From positions 1 to 24,766 of the IMG/VR virus record IMGVR_UViG_3300025098_004852: DNA of 24,766 bases; one strand, written 5' to 3'. This DNA is from a virus. Below are positions 15,770 to 24,766 of the stretch, piece after piece. Both the position numbers and the translations under genes were made by a program. Numbering within the stretch: position 1 is the first letter of the stretch; every line of letters begins with the position of its first letter. Below the pieces are notes generated by a model. It was not told the DNA's origin. It saw only the letters and a program-made list of their open reading frames with translations, and searched no databases.

Positions 15770-16543
15770 ATGGCTAAAATATCAAATAAAATAAAATTAA
15801 AATGCATTCAATGTAATTCTGAATATGAGTTACCGCCTTCTAAGGCTAAGACTTCTAAGTTTTGCTCTAGACAATGTAAAGATGAAAACAAGAAAAAAGA
15901 AGTTAAAGTTATTAAGTGTGTACCTTGTGGTAAAGATTTTGAATCAAAAAGAGGAAAAAAATATTGCAATAGAAAATGCTATTTAACTGAAAACAAAATA
16001 AAAAGAGTAAAGCTTAAATGTGAATATTGTGCTAAAGAATATGAAAAACCTGAAAATAGATTGACAAAATATTGTGGAAAGCCATGTCAAATGGCAGCAC
16101 AAAGTAGTGGTCTATCAGAGATTCCTTCAAATGGAAGAATGGGTTTTAGAAGAGACTTAAATCCGAATTATTTTTTTAAGTCTTCACTTGAAGCAGACTA
16201 CGCAAGATGGTGTGATGCAACAGGAAAGAAGTATATTTATGAGCATAAAACATTTACAGTTCAGTATGATGGAAGAGACAAAAAATATACTCCAGATTTT
16301 TATCACCCTGATGAAGATCGATATGTTGAAACAAAAGCTATACGTAGAGATAGAAAATTTAATTCAAACTTATTAGCTGCAGATCTTTTAAAGATTCAAG
16401 GCATTAATATTGATGTTCTTTTGATGCATGAATTCTATACTCAAATAAAACAAAGCGGACATTATTGGTTAATAGACAACATTGAGAATAAAAATTATTT
16501 AGGTACTAGACACTTAATTTATTTAAAAAAGAAAGTAACATGA
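15770..16543 (+). CDS. Zinc-finger PD-(D/E)XK endonuclease, probable free-standing homing endonuclease
   Basis: A 257-residue protein. Three Cys4 fingers lie in the first 106 residues (C12/C15...C32/C36; C50/C53...C66/C70; C84/C87...C102/C106). The nuclease core follows: Glu141 in 'SSLEADYARW', Pro175-Asp176 in 'KYTPDFYHP' and Glu187-x-Lys189 in 'VETKA', giving the E...PD...ExK active site. The same layout is found in the 20220 gene. It has a strong AAAGGAG site 8 nt before the ATG. It lies between the epimerase gene and a run of tiny genes, a common place for mobile endonuclease genes. Its end overlaps the next ATG (ATGA). Homing activity is inferred; it could also restrict competing phage DNA. 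Confidence 0.75.
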   Translation: MAKISNKIKLKCIQCNSEYELPPSKAKTSKFCSRQCKDENKKKEVKVIKCVPCGKDFESKRGKKYCNRKCYLTENKIKRVKLKCEYCAKEYEKPENRLTKYCGKPCQMAAQSSGLSEIPSNGRMGFRRDLNPNYFFKSSLEADYARWCDATGKKYIYEHKTFTVQYDGRDKKYTPDFYHPDEDRYVETKAIRRDRKFNSNLLAADLLKIQGINIDVLLMHEFYTQIKQSGHYWLIDNIENKNYLGTRHLIYLKKKVT

Positions 16544-18747: not shown

Positions 18748-18775
18748 ATTATAGCACTCACGTGTATATTTTTCA
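18748..18775 (-). promoter_or_regulatory. Minus-strand promoter for the 17157-18734 gene
   Basis: On the minus strand TGAAAA (18775-18770) and TATAAT (18753-18748) are 16 nt apart. The ACACGTG palindromic core lies in the spacer. AAAAGG and the ATG follow within 15 nt, so the 5' leader would be very short. Confidence 0.5.
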
Positions 18776-20115: not shown

Positions 20116-20181
20116 TTGTCAATTGAACTAATAACACCACCAAATAGATTTGTAGGCCTTCATGCACACAGCACTTTTTAA
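20116..20181 (+). pseudogene. Truncated DnaE N-terminus, copy 1
   Basis: A 21-codon frame starting with TTG (AAAGG about 9 nt upstream; no ATG in frame before the upstream stop at 20086). It encodes S-I-E-L-I-T-P-P-N-R-F-V-G-L-H-A-H-S-T-F and then TAA. The last 13 residues are identical to those of the second copy at 21261-21299, although 10 of the 39 bases differ, all synonymously. H-A-H is the first metal motif of the DnaE PHP domain. This is probably the original 5' end of the polymerase gene, cut off by the insertion that brought the endonuclease gene. Confidence 0.75.
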
Positions 20182-20182
20182 A

Positions 20183-20205
20183 AGGTAGTATGGGTATACT
20201 TACCT
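20183..20205 (+). promoter_or_regulatory. Hairpin just before the endonuclease ribosome site
   Basis: AGGTA-GTAT (20183-20191) pairs with ATAC and TACCT (20196-20199, 20201-20205) around a GGGT loop, with one bulged T. It lies between the stop of the DnaE fragment and the AAGGAG site of the endonuclease gene. RNA structures near the starts of phage homing-endonuclease genes are known to limit their translation; that role here is inferred. Confidence 0.45.
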
Positions 20206-20219
20206 AAAAAGGAGTTGTT

Positions 20220-21128
20220 ATGCCAAGATATGTAAAAAACAATTGTGAAATATGTAGTAAAGAATTTGAAGTAATTTATAAAAAAAGAAATCAAAAAACT
20301 TGTAGTAAAAAATGTGCTTATAAGCTTAGAAAGAAAAACAAAAATACATCCATCCCTAAACAAAAAAAATGCAATTCTTGCGGCAAAGATTTTTTTGATA
20401 AGACTAAGCTTAAAAATCAAACAGAATGTAAAGATTGTAAACTTAAAAAAGGTGTTGAAACAAGAAAGTTAAACGGATCTTACGAAAGAACTGAAGATCA
20501 AAATAGAAAGTTATCTGAAACTTTGAAAAGTCAATATAAAAGTGGCGAGAGAAAATTTAGTAAAGAAGCATTAGAAAAACTTTCAAAAGGTCTCACAAAA
20601 CGATGGGCTTCTGGTGAAATGAAAAACAAAACACAAGAAACTTGCTTAAAAAAGTATGGTGTTAATCATTGGACTAAATCAAAGCAAGCGAAAAAAAAGC
20701 TTTCAAATACAAGAAAAGGTTTTAAATTTTCAAAAAAAGTTAGACACAATATGTCAAAAGCTGCTGTTAAGAGAATTAAAAAATATAGAATATATTCTTT
20801 TGGAAACGGCGGGTTTAGAGAAGATATAAATCTTTATGTTAGAAGTAACTGGGAAGCAAACTTTGCTAGAGTGTTAAAATATAAAAAAATAAACTTTCAG
20901 TACGAGCCAGATACTTTTGAGTTATCTGAAGCTATGACTTATACACCTGATTTTAAAGTTGGAAACGTGTACTTTGAGATTAAAGGGTATATGGATGATC
21001 GATCAAAAGAAAAAATTTCTGCTTTTAAAAAATCATATCCTAATGTTTTACTATCAATAATTACAGGGGATGAATATAATATCTTGAGAGACACTTACTC
21101 AGATAAGATCTTATGGGAAGGCAAGTAA
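20220..21128 (+). CDS. Zinc-finger, NUMOD3-like PD-(D/E)XK homing endonuclease
   Basis: A 302-residue protein. Two Cys4 fingers come first (C9/C12/C28/C32 and C51/C54/C70/C73). Three NUMOD3-like DNA-binding repeats follow (around 91-110, 114-134 and 154-182), with an intervening 'CLKKYGVNHW' segment. The nuclease domain has Glu212 in 'SNWEANFARVL', Pro243-Asp244 in 'YTPDFKV' and Glu253-x-Lys255 in 'FEIKGY'. A strong AAGGAG precedes the ATG by 7 nt. It is sandwiched between two copies of the DnaE N-terminus, so its target is probably the dnaE PHP coding sequence. It is a relative of the 15770 protein. Cleavage specificity is inferred only from position. Confidence 0.8.
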   Translation: MPRYVKNNCEICSKEFEVIYKKRNQKTCSKKCAYKLRKKNKNTSIPKQKKCNSCGKDFFDKTKLKNQTECKDCKLKKGVETRKLNGSYERTEDQNRKLSETLKSQYKSGERKFSKEALEKLSKGLTKRWASGEMKNKTQETCLKKYGVNHWTKSKQAKKKLSNTRKGFKFSKKVRHNMSKAAVKRIKKYRIYSFGNGGFREDINLYVRSNWEANFARVLKYKKINFQYEPDTFELSEAMTYTPDFKVGNVYFEIKGYMDDRSKEKISAFKKSYPNVLLSIITGDEYNILRDTYSDKILWEGK

Positions 21129-21134
21129 AAGACG

Positions 21135-21162
21135 TGTAAATAATAACATTTTTTTTTATAAT
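21135..21162 (+). promoter_or_regulatory. Promoter-like element before DnaE copy 2
   Basis: ACGTGTAAA begins at 21132; TGTAAA (21135-21140), 16 nt, TATAAT (21157-21162). It lies just after the endonuclease stop and 36 nt before the ATG at 21198, so the downstream polymerase gene has its own promoter. Confidence 0.6.
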
Positions 21163-21197
21163 AAATCACGATTTAAATAAACTATATAAGGAATATA

Positions 21198-24100
21198 ATG
21201 AATAATACATTTAATGCAGAAAGGAGGTACTTAGAGAAGGTTGAACTTGATATGCTTAAACCCAATAGATTTGTTGGCTTGCATGCACATTCAACCTTCT
21301 CCTAGGTATCTACATTTGATGGTCTGGGTTATCCTGCTGACCACATTGATTTTGTTTTATCTGAGTCTCAAGGTATGGATGCTTGGGCTCTTACTGACCA
21401 TGGTAATGGAAACGGTCTTGCTCATGCTCATTCACATGCTGTAAAAATGCAAAAAGCAGGCCGTAAGTTTCGACAAATCTACGGAGTTGAGTTCTACTTC
21501 GTTCCTTCACTTGAACAATGGACAGAAGAATATGCTGCACATCGGCAAGCTGTTAAAGATGCTAAGACTGCTGCAGCAGCTGAAAAGAAGGCTAAGGAAA
21601 AAGTCGACATTGATGCCGATGATGAAAGTGGTGGATTGGTTGTTGAGGACGAAGATGAAACAAAGTCTGTTGATGTCCTTAAGGATGAATGGAAACGACG
21701 TTATCATCTTGTAGTTACAGCAAAAAATCAACAAGGTCTTAACAATCTATTTACACTTGTTAAGAAGTCTTACAAATACGGTTTCTATCGATACCCGAGA
21801 GTTGACTTTAAAATGCTTCAAGAACATGGTGAAGGATTACATATATCAACTGCATGTTTAGGTGGAATTTTTAGCAATCGTATTCTCCGAGGTGAAGTTC
21901 ATAATCAAAGCCGCAGCGAAATTCAATCTCAACTTCAAAATCTAACAGATCAATTTGTTTCTTGCGTAGGTGAAAACAACTTTAAACTAGAATTACAATT
22001 TAATAAACTAGAAAAACAACATGTAGTTAATGACTATCTTATCGAACACCATAAATTAACAGGCATTCCATTAATAGTCACAGCTGATTCTCATTACCCA
22101 ACAGCTAATAAGTGGCAAGCACGTGAGTTATATAAGAAACTCGGATGGCTTGGTAAACGAGATAACATGACACTTCCCGACTTTGAAGACCTTAAATGCG
22201 AGCTGTATCCTAAGAATGCTTCTCAAATGTGGGATGAATTCCTTGATGCATATCCTGTCTATGATTTCTATAAAGGTAATGAAGAATTAGTCCGTGATGC
22301 TATTGAAAGAACACATGACATTGTATGGAATGAATTTGAAGACACATGGGTTGATACCAGTGCAAAGCTTCCTGTTATTACTGTGCCAGGTAAAACACCA
22401 TTTCAGCATTTAACTACACTTGTCAAAGATGAACTAGTAGCACATAATCTCCATAAAGACAAAGTCTACGTTGAACGTGCTAAAGAAGAGTTACGTGATA
22501 TTGAATATCTAGGACATGAAGCATACTTTATTACGATGTATGAAATCTTTAAAAAAGCAGAACAAAAAACCTTACTTGGTCCAGCACGTGGAAGTGGTGG
22601 AGGTTCTTTAGTTAATTACTTACTAGGCATTACGCAGCTTGATCCAATACCTTATAACCTCCTATGGAGTCGTTTCTTAGGAAGACATCGTGTTTCTTGG
22701 CCTGATATTGATACTGATGCAGGTGACCGTGATGAATTAATTAAAGCAGCACGTGAATTGTACGGTGATGATGCTGTAATTCCAGTATCAAACTTCAATA
22801 CTCTTAAGCTTAAGTCTCTTGTCAAAGACATTTCAAAGTTTTATGATGTTCCTTTTGACGAAGTAAATAAAATGACGGGGCCTTTACAAGAAGAAGTAAT
22901 GATGCTTGCTCGTGATGAAAATCAAGAAAAATCTGTTTTTGTTCTTAAACATGAAGATTGCATGAATTATTCTCTGTCTTACCGTGAGTTTATGGAAAAG
23001 TATCCAGATGTAGAAAAACACGTATCTTCCTTGTTTATGCAAAACAGAGCTATCGGTCGCCATGCTGGAGGTGTTATTATAGCAGACGCCGACTTACTTG
23101 CCGAGTCTATGCCTATTATTGGTGTCCGTGGTGAATTACAAACTCCTTGGACTGAAGGTATGAACTTTCGTAATCTAGAAGATAATGGCTTTCTTAAGTT
23201 TGACTTCTTAGGTTTGACACTCCTTAAAGATGTAGAAAACTGTATCTATCGTATTCTTCGCAAGCAAGGTAATTCTAATCCGACATTCCTAGATGCAAAG
23301 GCATTCTTTGATAAACATTTAAACTGCCGTTATCATGAACAAAACGATCCTAAAGTATGGGAACATGTTTATCATGATGGCCACTTTGCAGGAGTATTTC
23401 AATTTACTAATCAAGGTGCAAGACAGTTTAGTATAGAAGCTAAACCAGAAAATATCGAAGAATTGGCAGCATTAACTGCGATTTATCGTCCGGGACCTTT
23501 AAAAGCAAATGTCCATAAGAAATATGTAAAAGCTAAAAAGAATGCAGACAGCATCAAGTATGACCACCCTATCATTAAGGAAGTTCTTGGACCTACATTC
23601 GGCTTTGTGACGTTTCAAGAACAGTTTATGCTTTTAGCACAGAAGCTAGCAGGCTTTGATCCAGGTGAAAGTGACAAGTTAAGAAAGACATTAGTTAAAA
23701 AATCTTTAGATACATTGCATTCTAAAGGTTCTGAAAAAGCTAAAGCACGCGAAAAGTTCATCAAAGGGTCTAAAGAATTAAACAATGTACCTGAGTCTGT
23801 ATCGTCTAAGTTATGGGCAGAGATAGAATATTTCTCTGTTTACGGCTTTAATAAAAGTCACGCAGTTGCATATGCTATTGATTCTTATTATGCTGCATGG
23901 CTGCACACTCATTATGAAACAGAATGGTTAGCAGCAATCCTTCAGTCTGAAAATGGTAATCCTAAAGGTATGTCTAAAGCAATATCTGAAATTAAATCTT
24001 TTGGATATGAAATTGCAGCAATTGACATCAATCATTCAGGCTTAGAATGGGAATTCTCTGAAGTGTTAAAAGCATTTGTTCCGCCACTAACATCACTTAA

Positions 24101-24766
24101 AGGTGTAGGAGACAAAGCTGTTGAAGAAGTATTTGCAAATAGACCATATAGTAATTTACAAGACTTATTTTATGATGATGACGGTAAATGGAAGCACTCA
24201 AAACTAAACAAAACAGCGTTTGCATCTTTATCCAAAATGGAAGCATTTAAATCTCTCAGTGAATTTGTTAATAACGATCTAGAAAATCATAAGCAATTGC
24301 ATGATTTGATACTCGATAACTATAATACACTTAAGAAAAGTATGTGGGGTATTACAAAAACGCAACATAAACGTGCTGTTAAAAACGGTGAAGAAGTTCG
24401 ACCTATCGTTGATGTATTAATAGAGAAATATAACGTTTTAACTGACTGGAGTCGTGCAGAAAAGATTAAGAATTATTTTGAGCTATCAAATGATGCATCT
24501 GATGATTTGTTATTCCCACCTGAATTGGTACAGAAGCTCCAAACAAAAGAAGTACAATCAATCTTTGATGTACCTGAAGGTAAACGAGGTATTGGTTGGT
24601 TTACAATAACAGAAGTTATCATGAAGAAAACAAAGAATGGTAAACCTTTTATGCGACTTAAGTGTGTAGATAATAACAGCAAAAGTGGTTGGCTTCGTGT
24701 TTGGGGTCAATTAGGTGAAGACATAGCTTATAGCACTTGGATGGCTGATGTGAAAAACGATACAGG
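21198..24766 (+). CDS. dnaE: DNA polymerase III alpha subunit (DnaE), interrupted by TAG, 3' end beyond window
   Basis: The frame starts at ATG 21198 (AAGGAA 6 nt before), gives 35 residues ending H29-A-H31-S-T-F-S, meets TAG at 21303-21305, and then stays open to the window edge (about 1150 codons). The PHP domain continues with 'LTDHGNGNG' and 'TADSHYPTAN', and has a charged low-complexity insert at about 21540-21690. The polymerase palm has 'SWPDIDTDAGDR' (near 22700) with two catalytic Asp, and 'FLKFDFLGL' (near 23200) with the third. 'YSVYGFNKSHAVAYA' and an OB-like segment (GIGWFTITEV) follow. Without a way past the TAG, translation would restart inside PHP and lose the first metal motif. 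This is the replicative polymerase expected to work with the helicase at 2579. The rest of the gene is outside the window. Confidence 0.85.
21303..21311 (+). other. 9-nt in-frame insert with TAG in the PHP motif region
   Basis: TAG-GTA-TCT lies between TCC (Ser) and ACA (Thr). Without it the product reads H-S-T-F-S-T-F-D-G, as expected for this PHP region. The insert ends in a Ser codon that is synonymous with the codon before it. CCTAGG at 21301-21306 is palindromic. Confidence 0.65.

Follow-up and report, generated by a model that had tools for sequence, protein, structure and literature searches.

The dnaE locus and its endonuclease gene

The window, that is, the whole stretch of DNA analysed here, is a 24.8 kb IMG/VR virus fragment (24,766 nucleotides) in which the 5' end of dnaE occurs twice, on the two sides of a homing endonuclease gene. 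The features of the dnaE locus, from copy 1 to the dnaE body, lie on the + strand, and start codons were assigned by inspection. Copy 1 (20116–20181; MSIELITPPNRFVGLHAHSTF) is the original dnaE 5' end, severed by the insertion; it starts with TTG at 20116, reads ...GLHAHSTF and ends with TAA at 20179–20181, and its start and sequence type are like those of the uninterrupted genes L003–L008 and L057. The endonuclease ORF (20220–21128) is followed by copy 2 (21198–21302; MNNTFNAERRYLEKVELDMLKPNRFVGLHAHSTFS), a replacement N-terminal ORF which opens with ATG at 21198 and differs in its codons from copy 1. The dnaE body, encoding the PHP, polymerase, finger and HHH domains, extends from 21312 to 24766 and is open to the window's end. 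In these respects the initial annotation is confirmed: it had described a 5' dnaE fragment reaching HSTF and a stop codon, an endonuclease gene between the copies and a second N-terminus from a new ATG. Its proposal that an endonuclease cassette carrying its own replacement N-terminus splits dnaE after the first PHP metal motif is also supported.

The same annotation had copy 2 running in frame into dnaE, which is wrong. The junction reads TTC TCC TAG GTA TCT ACA TTT GAT, so that a serine codon, UCC (21300–21302), is followed immediately by an in-frame stop, UAG (21303–21305). In uninterrupted relatives, ...HSTF is followed directly by STFDGLGYP, and L003, for example, has TTT AGT ACA TTT GAT (F-S-T-F-D). 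In the window, dnaE resumes 9 nt past the start of TCC, at UCU (21309–21311), a position where close relatives with an uninterrupted gene (L003 and L057, for example) have AGT. UCC and UCU are termed here the take-off and landing codons, and the coding gap between them is UAGGUA (21303–21308). Besides the TAG, the earlier reading had overlooked two RNA features around this junction: a long hairpin at 21225–21311 (5' arm, 21225–21245; 3' arm, 21290–21311; z -4.8) and an internal Shine-Dalgarno (SD) sequence, AGGAGG, at its 5' foot (21222–21227). The hairpin encloses the PHP-motif codons, and its 3' arm spans the take-off codon, the stop and the landing codon.

Copy 2 is under purifying selection (pN/pS 0.22 in the window's family). 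Its core motif is closer to that of the nearest uninterrupted relative by the dnaE tree than to random ones (p 0.002; four loci were misregistered in this comparison, which lowers the observed value). The promoter that had been claimed upstream of copy 2 stands at the level of a motif: a candidate promoter-like sequence, CGTGTAAAT...TATAAT, is present at 21133–21162. Similar sequences, CGTGTATAT...TATAAT, are found at 18761 and 20041, and the motif CGTGTA(A/T)AT...TATAAT is repeated upstream of genes in the window (18761, 20041 and 21133).

The 302-aa endonuclease consists of an N-terminal zinc-finger-like region, a NUMOD3-like helical middle part and a C-terminal T7-endonuclease-I-like PD-(D/E)XK domain. 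Its sequence profile matches T7 endonuclease I (1m0d) with an E value of 3e-8, and T7 endonuclease I also ranks first in Foldseek, where the matches are weak (E about 0.01) and agree with the profile. The catalytic E...D...ExK set is present, and E212, D244, E253 and K255 are invariant among 18 members of the family. The C-terminal catalytic domain and the active-site residues are thus common to this enzyme and T7 endonuclease I (1m0d, 2pfj); unlike the latter, the present enzyme is fused to zinc-finger/NUMOD3-like DNA-binding parts and is encoded by a homing gene within dnaE. F-CphI was considered as the nearest homing nuclease and rejected, as it is reported to be of the Endo VII type (PMC6083498). 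A second free-standing ORF in the window (15770–16543) has zinc-finger-like motifs and a Phage_endo_I-like domain (Pfam E 1.7e-4, under the curated cut-off), and is possibly another homing endonuclease. The search of bacterial genomes yielded only weaker relatives of the nuclease, within dnaE of Patescibacteria MAGs; in these (L282–L288), polymerase residues align on both sides of a related T7-endonuclease-I-like domain inside dnaE, and the domain appears to sit in an intein.

Recurrence and mobility of the cassette

An IMG/VR scan with the dnaE body gave 79 loci, and the use of other dnaE genes and of the endonuclease family as queries raised this to 123 distinct dnaE 5' ends; scans with the dnaE genes of L034, L166 and L172 added almost nothing new. 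At the insertion point, 35 of the 123 ends are interrupted and 88 are uninterrupted. A common anatomy is seen in 34 of the 35: a replacement N-terminus, a hairpin, a stop after a serine take-off codon and a landing codon downstream. In each of these the take-off codon is UCN and is followed immediately by UAG, UAA or UGA, so that, in 33 distinct loci other than the window, a stop and a short gap likewise part copy 2 from dnaE. The displacement from take-off to landing is 5, 7, 8, 9, 10, 11, 12, 38 or 42 nt, and all three frames are represented among the 34 loci. In every case, the predicted hop restores a sequence of the type H-x-H-...-S followed by [TVIA]-F-D-G, as in uninterrupted relatives, with nothing gained or lost.

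The take-off and landing codons share at least two of three bases in all 14 families (0.0003 under a null model which, like the shuffles used here, takes loci or families as independent). The match is perfect in L034, L062 and L068, and many landing codons match at two of three bases only, e.g., UCG to ACG. In the window's family, AGY is frequent at the landing position of close uninterrupted relatives, whereas the cassette has UCU, and the codon match there is therefore not simply inherited. The cassettes are probably mostly homologous; the number of independent events is therefore smaller than the 34 loci, with about 14 families represented.

Three loci (L062, L271 and L276), termed type II, have a displacement of 38–42 nt and a gap of 35–39 nt, with take-off three residues earlier. 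Their take-off codon UCG is followed by UAG or UAA, the landing codon is UCG or UCA, the gap holds its own GC-rich hairpin, and the endonuclease is not nearby. One interrupted locus, L153, breaks the pattern: there, dnaE is broken after HAHS by a perfect hairpin of 18 bp, TCTGCGGGTGCCCACAAC...GTTGTGGGCACCCGCAGA (L153:1000-1150), and neither an SD nor a stop right after the serine codon is present. Separately, the dnaE genes of L067, L069, L073, L080 and others also bear apparent inteins, some of which are apparently split and have their own start codons.

Comparisons with empty sites delimit the inserted cassette (endonuclease, replacement N-terminus and putative hop signal) to 20179–21311, with the left junction after ACTTTT and the right junction at the landing codon. 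When L057 is compared with L053/L159, L006 with L007, and L025 with L181, the flanks abut or overlap slightly. Relatives lacking the endonuclease have one uninterrupted gene which starts like copy 1, as the initial annotation had anticipated. The interrupted state is scattered over the dnaE tree, with at least 23 changes. The nuclease gene thus occupies one conserved site, is missing from close relatives and is patchily distributed, as is characteristic of homing elements. Cultured relatives were not found; phage records are less than 60% identical at dnaE, and matches to the endonuclease are weak.

In every near-full-length relative for which the 3' flank was available, the endonuclease family is located directly upstream of phage dnaE. 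Among the interrupted loci, the endonuclease is intact or nearly so, just upstream, in about 20; L034 and L068 have a remnant of it and L013 an incomplete copy, and it is absent, with the hop signal retained, from L012, L076, L079, L237, L273, L277, L062, L271 and L276. At nine further loci (L167, L169, L170, L173, L174, L176–L178 and L269), the same endonuclease family adjoins an uninterrupted dnaE, and one reading we offer is that these carry a cassette variant without bypass or have been repaired.

The simplest account, and the best reading of these sequences, is that the cassette is a mobile element in which an endonuclease, a replacement N-terminus and a bypass signal are joined. The same junction occurs in contigs of many different IMG/VR samples and empty sites exist; the insertion is a product neither of chance nor of assembly. 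We regard it as very probable that a mobile cassette of nuclease, recoded N-terminus and bypass signal has been inserted at the first PHP metal motif of a phage dnaE.

The RNA signal and the predicted synthesis of a single DnaE

The RNA features of the window recur in the interrupted loci, where the 5' arm, just behind an AGGAG-type SD, pairs with sequence ending at the take-off codon. Compared with random synonymous recodings, hairpin energy has a mean z of -3.2 in the interrupted loci (33 of 34 below -2) and of +0.4 in the 88 uninterrupted ones. Similarly, the internal AGGAG-type SD is present in 32 of 34 interrupted loci versus 0 of 88 uninterrupted ones. Looping out of the hairpin leaves 9–14 nt between the SD and the landing codon in almost every short-gap locus. 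All 17 representatives have base pairs at positions -6 to -1 relative to take-off; each of these positions shows two to four types of pair, and one hairpin pair has changed from C-G to U-A within the window's family. If about 14 nt of the mRNA 5' to the P site are assumed to be held by the ribosome, 12–15 bp (worth -12 to -26 kcal/mol) must await release of the mRNA before they can form, which fits the model for T4 gene 60 in which completion of a 5' stem-loop pulls the mRNA (PMC5009743).

From these features we infer a ribosome hop, as translational bypassing is the most likely extra step by which a single DnaE protein could be made. The ribosome would start at ATG 21198 and read as far as UCC (Ser), at which point UAG would occupy the A site. 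Behind it, re-formation of the hairpin from the just-translated mRNA would stop about 14 nt short of the P site. On release of the peptidyl-tRNA-Ser, a further 12–15 bp would close and draw the mRNA through the ribosome, so that the hairpin would serve as a motor. The looped-out hairpin would place AGGAGG about 9–14 nt from the landing codon, where pairing with the anti-Shine-Dalgarno sequence might act as a brake. The tRNA would then re-pair at a codon matching the take-off codon at two or more of three bases, and translation would resume. The predicted product is HSTFS-TFDG, with no residue gained or lost. The recoding and the gap probably also shield the resident allele from cleavage by its own endonuclease, as proposed for mobA/gene 60.

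Among the alternatives to bypassing, the least improbable, though still unlikely, is a split gene, in which an N-terminal peptide of roughly 25–35 aa and a separate DnaE remainder, translated by re-initiation near the hairpin and SD, would assemble. The internal SD does lie near the restart point when the hairpin is looped out, and phage proteins that reassemble from split parts are known (PMC2988022; cf. T4 gp39/gp60 and the split NrdA of Aeh1). However, no start codon is conserved: the first in-frame ATG, GTG or TTG is 0 to 31 codons past landing, depending on the family, and the landing codons resemble the serine take-off codon rather than a start codon. In addition, the codons just past landing are stop-free and as constrained as the corresponding codons of uninterrupted genes (pN/pS 0.33 versus 0.31). 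Selection on both sides of the gap argues against the view that the interrupted genes are decaying or artefactual, a view which an in-frame stop within a replicative polymerase gene might suggest. Identical anatomy in contigs from many samples also speaks against it; in the eight larger contigs, neither a second dnaE nor a stop within the matched dnaE frames was found. We consider decay or artefact extremely improbable.

Ordinary recoding, by readthrough of the stop or by a +1 or -1 frameshift at the Ser-stop site, could suffice for some loci taken singly. The displacement is divisible by three, with a single stop, in the window and in L007, L034 and L270; readthrough in the window would keep the frame and add three residues, and some gaps are open in a shifted frame. 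However, the displacements fall in all three frames with three stop codons in use, the gap contains a stop in the landing frame in L073 and L171/172, and there are two zero-frame stops in L069, L033 and L276; therefore, neither readthrough nor a single kind of frameshift can fit the whole set. No stop-codon suppressor tRNA was found among the anticodons read in phage tRNAs (12 contigs searched, tRNAs in four). Ordinary recoding is given little credence. Removal of the gap from the RNA before translation, through a small or unknown type of intron or through editing, is about as improbable as decay. The gap does lie at the foot of a strong hairpin, but gaps of 2–9 nt are far smaller than known introns, and the SD and stop point to a design for translation. 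Group I and II introns were rejected as conserved catalytic RNA was not found: the Rfam search, which included them, gave no match at the gathering score, and a relaxed search returned nothing but miRNA and snoRNA-type matches at chance level, the best of which fell on the hairpin itself.

Relation to known systems and significance

Programmed bypassing has been close to a singleton so far, with T4 gene 60 essentially its only phage example; the cases given in a 2024 paper are T4 gene 60 and the mitochondria of Magnusiomycetes (PMC11194080). T4 gene 60/mobA shares with the present loci a homing endonuclease that splits a replication gene, a coding gap, a stop directly after take-off, matched take-off and landing codons, an SD-like element near landing, a 5' stem-loop re-forming behind the ribosome as the proposed motor, and a proposed protection from the endonuclease (PMC5009743, PMC3014915, PMC11194080). 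The differences are also substantial. The dnaE cassette supplies a complete replacement N-terminus, and the predicted outcome is a single DnaE chain, whereas T4 has gp39 and gp60. The gap is mostly 2–9 nt rather than 50, the take-off residue is Ser rather than Gly, and the nuclease is T7-endonuclease-I-like rather than HNH. Here the hairpin encloses the new N-terminus with a strong AGGAGG at its foot, and many families and frames are represented. The KKYK nascent-peptide signal is absent from all N-terminal ORFs of the interrupted loci. A take-off stem-loop inside the gap is seen only in the type II loci, which are anatomically closest to T4 gene 60; it is lacking in most loci because gaps of 2–9 nt are too short for it. 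Lacking the 50-nt gap, KKYK and mostly the take-off stem-loop, the dnaE loci are therefore set apart from the gene 60 family.

The byp elements of Magnusiomyces mitochondria similarly comprise many short bypassed inserts with take-off/landing matches that are imperfect at times (PMC5009743, PMC11194080), but they are read by mitochondrial ribosomes, reportedly in a manner seemingly independent of mRNA context, whereas the dnaE loci have structured RNA, an SD and a stop. The putative bypass in the terminase gene of Streptomyces phage Hau3 shares a short gap in a phage gene and a 5' SD proposed as a landing aid; it is UUA-based, and neither an endonuclease cassette nor a replacement N-terminus is mentioned in that source (PMC5009743). 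Bypassing in dnaE was not found reported in the open-access literature searched.

The likeness to fungal mitochondrial atp6 drawn in the initial annotation holds in part. In that element, as here, the endonuclease ORF is accompanied by a piece that replaces part of the host gene, and there the replacement end joins the gene in a continuous frame. In dnaE, by contrast, a stop and a gap lie between the replacement end and the gene and the displacements fall in three frames; the design is therefore not a simple end-replacement.

Overall, we think it reasonably probable, though well short of assured, that these loci represent a widespread mobile family combining an endonuclease, a replacement exon and a compact bypass signal, a hairpin zipper plus Shine-Dalgarno brake. 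The PHP-encoding region would be interrupted while one protein is still made, and the signal would outlive the endonuclease and become fixed in the gene. If this is true, about 14 natural families in one gene, with all frames, controls and loss intermediates, would provide a comparative system for bypassing, in which the need for hairpin, SD, stop and codon match could be read from sequence and tested in E. coli extracts. Gene finders would truncate such polymerases. The loci would also illustrate how a selfish gene can enter a strongly conserved region of a replicative polymerase without destroying its function.
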